Assembly: GCA_016191285.1 (NCBI GenBank)
Contig: JACPPA010000034.1
Coordinates: forward strand, 62,001-126,000
DNA from: Gammaproteobacteria bacterium
GTDB lineage: Bacteria > Pseudomonadota > Gammaproteobacteria > Ga0077536
Length of the DNA stretch: 64,000 bases
Direction of reading: 5' to 3'
Made by a program: the position numbers and the translations under genes. Below, piece after piece: positions 4,596-57,657 of this stretch. The stretch's first letter is position 1; each line of letters starts with the position of its first letter. Below the pieces are notes generated by a model. The model saw nothing but the letters and a program-made list of their open reading frames with translations. It made no database searches and was not told where the DNA came from.

Positions 4596-4856
4596 ATGGG
4601 AACACAGGGCAAGTTACTTCGGCGTATCCTTGAAGGCCGTTCCGACGCCAATATCGATTTCTCAGAGTTGCGCGCGCTCTTGCTGTACCTGGGCTTTGAG
4701 GAGCGCACGAGAGGCAGCCATCACATCTTCCGGCGTGCCGATGTCGAGGAGCGAATTAACCTCCAAAGGCAAGGGAACAAGGCCAAGCCGTATCAGGTCC
4801 GTCAAGTCCGAGCTGTTGTCTTGCGCTACAAACTACGAGGTTTTATCGATGTATAG
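4596..4856 (+). CDS. hicA: HicA-family mRNA interferase toxin
   Basis: An 86-residue protein matching the longer subgroup of HicA toxins. It has an N-terminal SDANIDFSEL helix, the RGSHHIF motif containing the catalytic histidine of the double-stranded-RNA-binding-like fold, and the C-terminal KPYQVRQVR stretch. HicA cleaves mRNA when free of its antitoxin. The ATG at 4596 leaves the family N-terminus intact. The stop codon at 4854-4856 overlaps the hicB start at 4849 by eight bases, the usual toxin-first arrangement of this module. No inactivating change is visible, so the toxin is probably functional and held in check by HicB. Confidence 0.88.
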   Translation: MGTQGKLLRRILEGRSDANIDFSELRALLLYLGFEERTRGSHHIFRRADVEERINLQRQGNKAKPYQVRQVRAVVLRYKLRGFIDV

Positions 4857-53538: not shown

Positions 53539-54477
53539 ATGGTTAAAATACGCGAAATTACTTCCGGTCTGCAGTTCCCCGAAGGGCCGATTGCCCTCGA
53601 CGACGGCAGTGTACTGGTGGTCGAAATCAAGCGCGGCACACTGACGCGGGTGAAACCCGACGGTAAGCTGCAAGTCATCGCCGAAACTGGCGGTGGGCCG
53701 AATGGTGCGGCGATCGGTCCTGACGGCATGGTGTATATCTGTAACGACGGCGGCTTCGAGTGGATGGAAATGGACGGGATGACCGTCCCCGGACATACGC
53801 CGCACAGCTACACGCGCGGCAGCATCCAGCGCGTGAACATGGCCACCGGCAAAGTGGAAATCCTCTATACCCAATGCGATGGCCATGCCTTGAAGGGGCC
53901 GAATGACATCGTGTTCGATCGCCACGGTGGTTTCTGGTTTACGGATTTTGGGAAGACCTACGACCGATCCCGTGATCGCACCGGGATTTTCTATGCGAAA
54001 ACCGACGGCTCGATGATCAAGGAAATCGTGTTCCCGATGGATGGGCCGAACGGCATCGGGCTCTCCGCGGGTGACAAAAAACTCTATGTCGCGGAAACTT
54101 TTACGGCCCGGGTGTGGCAATGGGAAGTGGCTGGTCCCGGCGAATTGGTTCGCGGCAAAGGCGTCGGTGGACCCTTACTGGAGGGTCCGGGCGGCGCGAC
54201 GTTGTTGACTGGGTTACCCGGTTATCAATTGTTGGATTCGTTGGCGCTCGACAGTGAAGGCTACGTGGCGGTAGCGACGATCATCAACGGCGGGATCACG
54301 GCGATCTCGCCCGATGGAAAGCACATCGAACACGTGCCGCTGCCCGATCCGCTGACTACCAATATCTGCTTCGGCGGCAAGGATCTGCGGACGGCCTATG
54401 CGACGCTGTCCGGCACTGGCAAGCTGGTCGCTTTCGATTGGCCGCGGCCTGGATTGAAATTGAATTTCACCGCCTAG
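53539..54477 (+). CDS. SMP-30/gluconolactonase family protein
   Basis: 312 residues, six-bladed propeller of the SMP-30/LRE type: FPEGPIALDDGSVLVVEI, GGGPNGAAIGPDGMVYICNDG, LKGPNDIVFDRHGGFWFTDFGKT and DGPNGIGLSAGDKKLYVAET. The acidic/Asn metal-binding positions are all present. Such enzymes hydrolyse sugar lactones, or other lactones. A GAGAGGAAAT ribosome site precedes ATG 53539. No signal peptide. The upstream intergenic DNA holds the MITE-like element. Confidence 0.9.
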   Translation: MVKIREITSGLQFPEGPIALDDGSVLVVEIKRGTLTRVKPDGKLQVIAETGGGPNGAAIGPDGMVYICNDGGFEWMEMDGMTVPGHTPHSYTRGSIQRVNMATGKVEILYTQCDGHALKGPNDIVFDRHGGFWFTDFGKTYDRSRDRTGIFYAKTDGSMIKEIVFPMDGPNGIGLSAGDKKLYVAETFTARVWQWEVAGPGELVRGKGVGGPLLEGPGGATLLTGLPGYQLLDSLALDSEGYVAVATIINGGITAISPDGKHIEHVPLPDPLTTNICFGGKDLRTAYATLSGTGKLVAFDWPRPGLKLNFTA

Positions 54478-54544: not shown

Positions 54545-55219
54545 TTATCGCTTGGCGCCCGCCGTTTCGCGTTCGACCTCTTGCGCGAAGTCGCCATCCG
54601 CAAGCTGCTGCAGGAAGTTCGGATAGCGCGCCGCGAAATCTTGGCGGATGGTGGCGATGGGCACCTCCGCGAATTCGCCGCGATAGCGCAAATATTCCAT
54701 GTGTTGCCGCCCGTCCTCATCGAAGGCGTGATAGATCGAATCTGTCGTGCCATCGAATTCGAGCGGTTTCAGGCGAAATTTCTGGCATAACTCAACATTG
54801 AATGCCGGGGTGGCCTTAACCCACTGGCCGGCGAGGTGGATGTCGGTATACCCGTGCCAATAATATTCATCGGTCCCCATGATGCGGCGCATGCGCTCGG
54901 TGGAGAGATGATTTTTAACATCGGCGTAGCCGAGGCGAGCGGGGATCCCCGCCGCGCGACAACACGCCGCTAACAGCACCGCTTTGCTGACACACCAGCC
55001 GCGGCCGGTCGCGAGGACGCGGCTGGCCGACAGCCCCGCGACCGTGAGGTCGATGGCGTAACCGTCGTAGCGAATTTGATCGCGTACCGCGTAGTAGAGC
55101 GCGACGGCGCGATCGCCTTCCGCGTTAATTCCTTCGACGTGGCGCTGCGCGAAGGCGGCGACTGCCGGGTGGTCGGCATCAACGGTCGGGGTAGGTGCGA
55201 GGTACGCGGGATCGATCAT
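54545..55219 (-). CDS. Transglutaminase-like cysteine peptidase
   Basis: 224 residues. Catalytic triad residues are in GRGWCVSKAVLL (Cys), YYWHGYTDIHL (His) and VKATPAFN (the usual Asp position, here less clear). No signal peptide, so likely cytoplasmic. Its start is at 55219, which overlaps the TGA at 55216-55218 that would end the full-length acyl-CoA synthetase frame by an ATGA junction. This fits the idea that the upstream gene originally read through. Role unassigned. Confidence 0.85.
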   Translation of the reverse strand: MIDPAYLAPTPTVDADHPAVAAFAQRHVEGINAEGDRAVALYYAVRDQIRYDGYAIDLTVAGLSASRVLATGRGWCVSKAVLLAACCRAAGIPARLGYADVKNHLSTERMRRIMGTDEYYWHGYTDIHLAGQWVKATPAFNVELCQKFRLKPLEFDGTTDSIYHAFDEDGRQHMEYLRYRGEFAEVPIATIRQDFAARYPNFLQQLADGDFAQEVERETAGAKR

Positions 55220-55302
55220 GTTTGGCCGCCATCCAGTCGTTCACGTGCTTGCACCCGCAATTCGACTTTGCGAATTTTGCCGCTCGAGGTCATCGGAAAC
55301 GC
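55216..55302 (-). pseudogene. 3' remnant of the acyl-CoA synthetase frame beyond an amber codon
   Basis: Directly after the stop at 55303-55305 (TAG) the same frame continues as AFPMTSSGKIRKVELR and ends QARERLDGGQT then TGA at 55216-55218. This is the A10 motif region containing the catalytic lysine (GKIRK) expected at the end of acyl-CoA ligases. The TGA overlaps the start of the next gene (ATGA), as expected for an intact operon. So a nonsense codon, or a sequencing error, truncates the gene by about 29 residues. Confidence 0.85.
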
Positions 55303-56850
55303 CTAGACAAAAATCACGTGTCGCGGGATCTTGAAGCTCGCGATACGCCCCTTCATCCGCTCGAGCAAGGTATCCGCGCCGACTTTCTGATCGGGCTTTA
55401 AGATGACGAAAGCAACCGGCACTTCGCTCAAGCGCGGGTCGGGATACGCGACCACCGAGGCATCTTGAATCTCGACCATGTTGCGCAGATAAGCCTCGAT
55501 TTCAGCGGGCGACACATTTTCGCCGCCGACTTTTAACATATCCTTGGCCCGCCCCATGAACACCAGGTGGCCGTCCTCTCGTAGATAGGCGGTATCACCG
55601 GAATGCACCCAGCCATCGATCAACGTGGCAGCCGTGGCGTCGGGTTTATCCCAGTAGCCCTTCATGATGCCGTAGCCTTTGATCAGCAGTTCGCCTTGTC
55701 CGCCCAGGGGCTGTTCGCGTCCGGTTGCGGGATCGATGACTTTGAATTCGTAGTCATTCATCGGGTAGCCAGAGGCGTAGACGCGTTGCTCGCGGGTATG
55801 CGACGGGTTATTACACGCCACATAGGCCCAGACTTCGCTCATGCCGAAGCCCGAAATCGTCGGGCAGAACACGTCTTGGACTTTTTCAGCAATGGGAATG
55901 GTGCTCGCCTGCCCAGCCGGTAAGGTGCCCATGCGAATCGACAATTTGCGCGGCTTCCGCGCTTGGACGACGAGCAAATCGGCCCAATGCGTTTCGAAGC
56001 CATGCAGAAATGTCGCGCCTTCGCGCTCCGCGAGATCGAGCGCGCGCTCGGCGTCGAAGGCCTCCATCAGGATCTGTTTGCCACCGGTCAGCGCACACAT
56101 CAGTGCGATTTCGCTGTAGGAATAGACGTGAAACAGCGGCAGATAATTCACGTGAATTTCCGCCATTGTTTGACCAAGCAGTTGTCCACGTTCGTGCACC
56201 GAACGAATCGGCGCGTGCGAATGCATGACACCTTTCGGATGGCCGGTGGTGCCGGACGTGTACGCAATCATCATCAACCAGTCGGGATCCACGGCTTGCA
56301 AGCGGGCGGCGAGTACGTCATCTGTGATTCTCTCACCACCGGCAATTAACGCGGCCCAATCCAGCGCATGCGGCAGGCGAGCCTCGCCAAGCACGACCAG
56401 CCGTCGAATGTCGGGATAATTTTCGACGCTTAGACTCCCATCGGCGCGGCGTGTGATCGCCGGCATCGAATCAATCAGCATGCCTTGATAATCTACCGGC
56501 CCCGAGCGATCGAGCGTAATCAAGGTCGCGCTCCGCGATTGCGTGACGGTATAAGCCACGTCATCGGTTCGATAGCGCGTATTGAGCGGGACAATACACG
56601 CACCGACCTTGGCAATGGCGAACATCAGCCACAGCCATTCGGGGCGATTGGTCATCCACAACGCAACGCGCTCCTCGGGTTCGACGCCGAGCGCCATCAA
56701 CCCCTTCGCGACCGCATCGGTCTCGCGCTTGAATTCGGCCCAGGTCCAGCGTCGATCGCCAAAGACCAAGGCTTCGCGATTCCCCCAGCGCAGGGCCGCT
56801 TCATCGACGAGCTGGCCTAGGGTCCGTTTGCGATACCACTCCATTCCCAT
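55303..56850 (-). CDS. Acyl-CoA synthetase (AMP-dependent), truncated by an in-frame amber codon
   Basis: 515 residues of the ANL (acyl/aryl-CoA synthetase) family: ATP-binding MIAYTSGTTGHPKGVMHSH, GFGMSEVWAY, GWVHSGDTAYLREDGH and MGRAKDMLKVGGENVSPAEIE. It activates a carboxylic acid to its CoA thioester in two steps. The frame stops with TAG just before the A10 catalytic-lysine motif, which is still intact in the next codons (see 55216-55302). Without readthrough the protein could bind ATP and form adenylate poorly but not complete the reaction well. The start ATG 56850 gives a complete N-terminus. Substrate unknown; the neighbourhood suggests catabolism. Confidence 0.85.
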   Translation of the reverse strand: MGMEWYRKRTLGQLVDEAALRWGNREALVFGDRRWTWAEFKRETDAVAKGLMALGVEPEERVALWMTNRPEWLWLMFAIAKVGACIVPLNTRYRTDDVAYTVTQSRSATLITLDRSGPVDYQGMLIDSMPAITRRADGSLSVENYPDIRRLVVLGEARLPHALDWAALIAGGERITDDVLAARLQAVDPDWLMMIAYTSGTTGHPKGVMHSHAPIRSVHERGQLLGQTMAEIHVNYLPLFHVYSYSEIALMCALTGGKQILMEAFDAERALDLAEREGATFLHGFETHWADLLVVQARKPRKLSIRMGTLPAGQASTIPIAEKVQDVFCPTISGFGMSEVWAYVACNNPSHTREQRVYASGYPMNDYEFKVIDPATGREQPLGGQGELLIKGYGIMKGYWDKPDATAATLIDGWVHSGDTAYLREDGHLVFMGRAKDMLKVGGENVSPAEIEAYLRNMVEIQDASVVAYPDPRLSEVPVAFVILKPDQKVGADTLLERMKGRIASFKIPRHVIFV

Positions 56851-56937
56851 CCTCCGTTATGTTCGAAGCCTGCATGGTACTGACCGCTAAGAATCTACGC
56901 TATGCTTAAACGGCCGCTGCCGATCGAGGGGAACATC

Positions 56938-57657
56938 ATGCAGTTCGAAGAGACGATTCCACGCCAATATTTCACGCGCAAGGCAATGGCCAAGCGCGTG
57001 GCCCGCTTCGCGAAGGTAAAGGGTTCTGACGGTGGTCTACCCGATAGCTACCATCCTTCCGCCGAGCGCATCTTATATAACGTGATTGGTTTTCAACCGC
57101 CGCCGCACGAGGCCGACGGCTTGCATTCGCCAGTCGGCGCTAACGCCGCGCGGATGGCTGCGATCAAGATCTCCGAAGGCTTCAATCTCGGGTTCTGTCG
57201 CGCCTTGCCGGGCAAGGGGCCGATGATGCATAACCACGATACCAACGAGACCTTCGTGTGTATTACTGGTAAATGGCGCGCGAGTTGGGAACAGCCGAAC
57301 GGCAAGATCGATTACTTTGATCTCAATCCACTCGATGTCATTTCGTTTCCGCCGGGCTGCATTCGACGCTTCGAAAACGTGACCAAGGGTCCGAAGCAGC
57401 AATATTCGACGCTGATGTTCGTGATCGCCGGCGATCAGCCGCAAGCCGAATTCAGCAAGGAGGCGATGGCCGTGCTCGAAGCGGCCGGGTTATTGGCTGG
57501 CGACCCCGCGCGCAAGGCCAAGGCGATTGGAACACGGAGTGCCCGGGTTGCGGCAACGAAGCCTAAACGCGCGACTACCAAACGGGCTCTGCGACGCGCG
57601 CCGACCAAGGCCAAGTTGCCAACCAAACGCGCGAGGACTACACAACGCTTGCGCTAG
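56938..57657 (+). CDS. Cupin-domain protein with a strongly basic C-terminal tail
   Basis: 239 residues from ATG 56938 (GAGGGGAAC upstream). Residues about 85-165 form a cupin: MMHNHDTNETFVCITGKW (metal-binding HxH, E) and the second motif near LDVISFPPGCIRRFENV. From residue 190 on the chain is dominated by Lys, Arg, Ala and Thr (for example ATKPKRATTKRALRRAP), resembling histone H1-like tails, so it may bind nucleic acid or polyphosphate. Function unknown. Divergent from the acyl-CoA synthetase. Confidence 0.82.
   Translation: MQFEETIPRQYFTRKAMAKRVARFAKVKGSDGGLPDSYHPSAERILYNVIGFQPPPHEADGLHSPVGANAARMAAIKISEGFNLGFCRALPGKGPMMHNHDTNETFVCITGKWRASWEQPNGKIDYFDLNPLDVISFPPGCIRRFENVTKGPKQQYSTLMFVIAGDQPQAEFSKEAMAVLEAAGLLAGDPARKAKAIGTRSARVAATKPKRATTKRALRRAPTKAKLPTKRARTTQRLR

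Follow-up and report, generated by a model that had tools for sequence, protein, structure and literature searches.

Does an acyl-CoA synthetase gene that is cut by an in-frame TAG codon carry a recent nonsense mutation, a misread base, or a codon that the cell decodes as an amino acid? The question arises in the window, by which we mean the whole 64,000-nucleotide stretch of DNA analyzed here (C58:62001-126000), which belongs to a 5.1-Mb genome assembled in 60 contigs. A first-pass annotation of this DNA had reported an amber codon at 55303-55305 on the minus strand, and this codon is indeed present in the sequence (Table 1). Beyond the TAG the frame begins AFPMTSSGKIRK and stays open for 28 sense codons; with the TAG written as X, the frame continues through these 28 codons as AFPMTSSGKIRKVELRVQARERLDGGQT and then closes with TGA at 55216-55218. 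This final stop shares bases with the start codon of a transglutaminase-like gene (ATG at 55217-55219, minus strand), forming the ATGA that had been described earlier. The same annotation placed the end of the frame 29 codons after the TAG, a count that holds when the TGA is taken as the 29th codon and fails when sense codons are counted. The locus is represented by one full copy in the genome, and only short, weak matches to the 90-base end of the gene were found elsewhere genome-wide.

Table 1. Features at the interrupted acyl-CoA synthetase locus, in window coordinates.
Feature	Position	Strand	Description
AMP-forming acyl-CoA synthetase ORF (ANL superfamily)	55303..56850	-	515 aa, closed by in-frame TAG
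In-frame amber codon TAG	55303..55305	-	Own genome only; Asp, Glu or Gln codons in 31/31 readable relatives
Conserved C-terminal continuation	55216..55302	-	28 sense codons and TGA, with A10 motif SSGKIRK
A10 (catalytic) lysine codon	55276..55278	-	Residue 525 of read-through frame; final residue of Pfam AMP-binding_C match
Possible re-initiation frame, 25 aa	55216..55293	-	ATG 9 bases past TAG; speculative, read from sequence
Transglutaminase-like gene, downstream	54545..55219	-	Start overlaps old stop (ATGA); adjoins ligase in same-genus relatives too

The position of the stop determines what the protein loses. The AMP-binding domain (PF00501) is matched above its cut-off by residues 16-400 of the ligase (259 bits). 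Translated only as far as the stop, the protein covers 66 of the 76 positions of the AMP-binding_C domain (PF13193, positions 1-66, 41.3 bits), and the read-through frame covers all 76 (positions 1-76, 56.1 bits) with lysine 525 as the last matched residue. The stop thus removes the last 10 positions of this domain, including the A10 lysine (K525), and leaves a product that lacks a complete C-terminal domain with this residue. That the TAG lies just ahead of the catalytic-lysine motif, as had been proposed, is borne out by the presence of K525 in the continuation, where it aligns with the lysine of the SGK motif in PDB entries 8weu and 8wev. In a review (PMC8388817), the A10 lysine figures as the key catalytic residue that acts in the adenylation conformation and is highly conserved among acyl-CoA ligases. 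Among the 25 NCBIfam models listed (107 matched), none reaches its curated cut-off, the best listed being PRK12583 (352.8 versus 832 bits), and therefore we do not assign a substrate to the ligase.

Related genomes bear on the site itself. A homologue search across 58 genomes, own included, gave 32 relative matches at E <= 1e-195 among the matches listed, with the own match excluded. Of these, 31 could be read at the site; the match in G032 (L029, L140) stops at query residue 480, short of the site, and was excluded. Also outside this count are weaker paralogues and five matches with E-values from 1.4e-165 to 1.4e-162 and 48-50% identity. The site codon encodes Asp in 15, Glu in 10, and Gln in 3 of 28 relatives, and Asp in each of the further three. 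No readable relative has a stop here (0/31), and all 31 proteins run on through the A10 motif, so the scenario in which related genomes all end the protein at this point was checked and does not apply. In all 31 comparisons the stop is missing from the orthologue and homology extends past it, which is the pattern used to recognize a nonsense-mutated gene. The downstream piece had been called intact; it shows homology to the C-terminal ends of all 31 readable relatives and extends the AMP-binding_C match, and is thus no product of chance. Stops that fall inside the matches of several relatives (TAG in G022; TGA in G019, G003, and G007; TAA in G031), and in the weak paralogue G042 (TAG), were considered and set aside as normal terminal stops that the match had reached or overrun.

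Our sample of the genus comprises six genomes, own included, each of the other five being from a species other than that of the genome under study. Four of these five carry a ligase match at E <= 1e-150, with best identities of 81, 81, 80, and 68%. The fifth, G005 (94% complete), is without a match at this threshold, an absence suggesting that members of the genus can do without the gene; a copy may also hide in the 6% completeness gap of G005. In three same-genus genomes (L010-L012, and again in records L039-L041), the ligase is surrounded by the transglutaminase-like gene, a divergent gene (56902-57657 in the window), and an NYN-domain gene. In the window, an SMP-30/gluconolactonase-like gene (53539-54477, plus strand) separates the transglutaminase-like gene from the NYN-domain gene. 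Because these two adjoin in the three relatives, the SMP-30/gluconolactonase-like gene was either gained here or lost there.

The state of the gene bears on the age of the event. Among columns with at least 95% conservation, the own sequence departs at 1 of 175 before the stop and at 0 of 11 after it, and three intact same-genus copies show 0, 1, and 1 departures over these 186 near-invariant columns, a comparison more telling than substitution rates. A Val in the own tail, where the printed relatives show Ala or Gln, is conspicuous by eye and lies in a column that is not near-invariant. Values of dN for body and tail are 0.138 and 0.134 against L010, 0.130 and 0.136 against L011, and 0.144 and 0.241 against L012, figures that carry little weight due to synonymous sites that are saturated or nearly so and a tail of only ~60 nonsynonymous sites. 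Body and tail thus show no visible decay, and therefore the event is either very young or a base error.

We assign a probability of roughly 0.64 to the best explanation, namely that the acyl-CoA synthetase gene, which is dispensable and present in single copy, has recently acquired a nonsense mutation in this lineage alone. The sense codon in all 31 readable relatives and the undecayed body and tail speak for such a mutation, as do the RF1, tRNA, and stop-usage results given below. Against it stands the fact that a single assembled sequence is at hand, in which a base error would look identical. We therefore rank second the possibility that the consensus carries an erroneous base, or the base of a minority variant, in an otherwise intact gene; this reading is a serious one, although on balance we consider it unlikely. 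It draws on the good preservation of the gene in both body and tail, and on the finding, made partly by eye, that no other TAG among the sampled genes described below has a demonstrably same-protein continuation. It is opposed, if not decisively, by the nature of the difference, which is of the substitution type rather than a homopolymer indel, and by the quality of the assembly (60 contigs, with a listed completeness of 100% and contamination of 0%).

An in-frame amber codon with a conserved continuation also raises the matter of recoding, which had been judged improbable at first pass because other genes of this DNA, such as hicA, use TAG as a normal stop. The HicA frame (4596-4856) does close with TAG, and the same is true on a larger scale. 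We sampled 564 kb, consisting of the window and 25 stretches of 20 kb, and took genes from open reading frames of at least 80 codons by a codon-score heuristic rather than from annotation. The 387 sampled genes end in TAA (148), TGA (134), or TAG (105), and the 50 genes in the window alone in TAA (12), TGA (20), or TAG (18). Extensions past the stop were scored for 384 of the 387 genes, and 238 of these 384 are free of other called genes. In this filtered set the mean coding scores are alike, at -3.02 for 74 TAG genes, -2.97 for 95 TAA genes, and -3.42 for 69 TGA genes. Unfiltered means are highest for TAG (3.49, compared with 2.18 for TAA and -4.96 for TGA), which on its face would favor reassignment of TAG to an amino acid, whether genome-wide or partial. 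By eye, however, this lead arises because neighboring genes happen to share the frame. Seven TAG genes with overlapping extensions that score above 10 (7 of 146 overlapping extensions) were inspected, and six run into a same-frame called gene that starts 4 to 12 codons past the stop and appears by eye to be a separate gene. In the seventh case, L093:15817-16353, the frame contains no called gene.

Release factor 1 was found with 534 bits against a cut-off of 423. None of the 45 tRNAs called by ARAGORN, at 46 RF00005 matches, has a CUA (cta) anticodon, in a set that may be incomplete. With TAG closing 105 of the 387 sampled genes, RF1 present, and no cta anticodon seen, the earlier judgment is upheld: general recoding of TAG is rejected by stop usage together with extension scoring, RF1, and the tRNAs, and we give reassignment virtually no credence. 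The tRNA set may be incomplete because tRNA-Ile(gat) and tRNA-Ala(tgc) are not among the 45 found, and their absence may mean that the assembly lacks the ribosomal RNA operon. The 46th RF00005 match is a partial tRNA-like copy of 31 bits that ARAGORN did not call (L089:155-217, or C24:41104-41166). A complete tRNA-Lys(ctt) is situated ~4.3 kb away at C24:36766, and the partial copy may be the remnant attachment site of a small integrated element.

The same scores help to gauge how far the continuation of the ligase can be trusted as coding sequence. By coding score per codon, the tail ranks second among 97 non-overlapping extensions of at least 20 codons. The first rank is held by the 23-codon extension past the TGA of L091:5613-6668, which serves as a control and is not conserved: in the five same-genus matches the alignment extends no further than query residue 355 of 375, and the stop is at residue 352. 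Because a non-conserved control ranks first, the coding score alone proves little and homology carries the case. Seven non-overlapping coding-like extensions besides the ligase tail were inspected. Four appear, by eye, to be separate downstream genes in the same frame, and the remaining three are a likely UGA-Sec gene, the non-conserved control, and L102:9252-10373, with 13 codons. A scan of the 564 kb that sees in-frame stops only, and misses frameshifts, confirmed no other disrupted gene, and thus nothing locally points to genome decay, which counts against the nonsense mutation.

Readthrough or suppression at this one UAG, which would restore the full-length enzyme, is a narrower proposal. 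Efficient readthrough would, like a recent mutation, keep a fully conserved tail, and this counts against the mutation; the intact tail, the normal length, and the preserved gene overlap all agree with readthrough. Nevertheless, no suppressor tRNA was seen among the 45 tRNAs, RF1 is present, and the best match to PylS falls below threshold (25.1 bits versus a cut-off of 178.15). No unusual RNA structure that might serve as a readthrough signal was detected around the stop, where the fold is unremarkable (z = 0.50), and no readable relative has a stop at the site. We consequently hold readthrough or suppression to be improbable, although readthrough at a low level may take place. The first-pass annotation had offered three options, namely a nonsense mutation of very recent date, readthrough or suppression, and a base-call error; the comparison with relatives backs the first and last of these and speaks against suppression and recoding. 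CTAG, the tetramer that includes the stop, is slightly underrepresented in the sampled DNA (540 occurrences against 696.5 expected), which is of no use in interpreting the site.

A further arrangement would make two proteins of the frame. An AGG lies 8 bases ahead of the ATG that follows the TAG, and ribosomes might re-initiate there to produce a 25-aa A10 peptide that, together with the 515-aa body, would constitute an active acyl-CoA synthetase. The position of this ATG and AGG is the sole support for such a split enzyme, and we deem it very improbable.

If the stop is a true nonsense mutation, ribosomes would halt at the UAG with RF1 and release a 515-aa protein without the A10 lysine. Because this residue helps to form the acyl-adenylate, the truncated product is expected to have no activity in the adenylation half-reaction; translational coupling of the overlapping gene downstream may also be partly lost. 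In a metabolic annotation of the organism, the ligase gene should be flagged as inactive or misread. Settling the nature of its stop mainly averts a false claim of recoding.

A better candidate for recoding than the ligase TAG is located on the same contig, outside the window. A carboxymuconolactone-decarboxylase-like frame at L091:13974-14537 (minus strand; C58:139974-140537), which we take to be AhpD-like, is crossed by an in-frame TGA that occupies the second position of a C-x-x-C-type motif in NNCFL(TGA)IHAR. In the Pfam search, nothing matches the part ahead of the TGA, and the part past it gives a marginal match to the CMD family at 23.1 bits (cut-off 23). A stable hairpin with a GGUC loop lies about a dozen bases past the TGA (z = -2.69), and SelB (396 bits) is encoded beside tRNA-Sec in the same genome (C37:6112-8146). 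As judged from its own genome, this frame is a probable selenoprotein of the AhpD-like (CMD family) type. The name AhpD-like occurs in work on bacterial selenoproteins, and thus the candidate would be of a known kind.

Three known systems resemble the interrupted ligase in different ways. The gene conforms to AMP-forming acyl-CoA synthetases of the ANL type in that both domains, AMP-binding and AMP-binding_C, score above their cut-offs and the continuation retains the A10 lysine, but the frame here halts 9 codons ahead of that lysine. It recalls the decoding of UAG by pyrrolysine or suppressor tRNAs in that an in-frame UAG is followed by a conserved stretch of the frame, and differs in that the tRNA and PylS searches did not find the decoding machinery. 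It is also like a unitary pseudogene made by a single nonsense codon, with one in-frame stop in one lineage and intact orthologues elsewhere. It differs from an ordinary one in showing no further decay, and this again indicates a very young event or a base error. In metabolic genes that are dispensable, lone nonsense codons are frequent, and the stop in the ligase is most likely an ordinary event of this kind or a base error.
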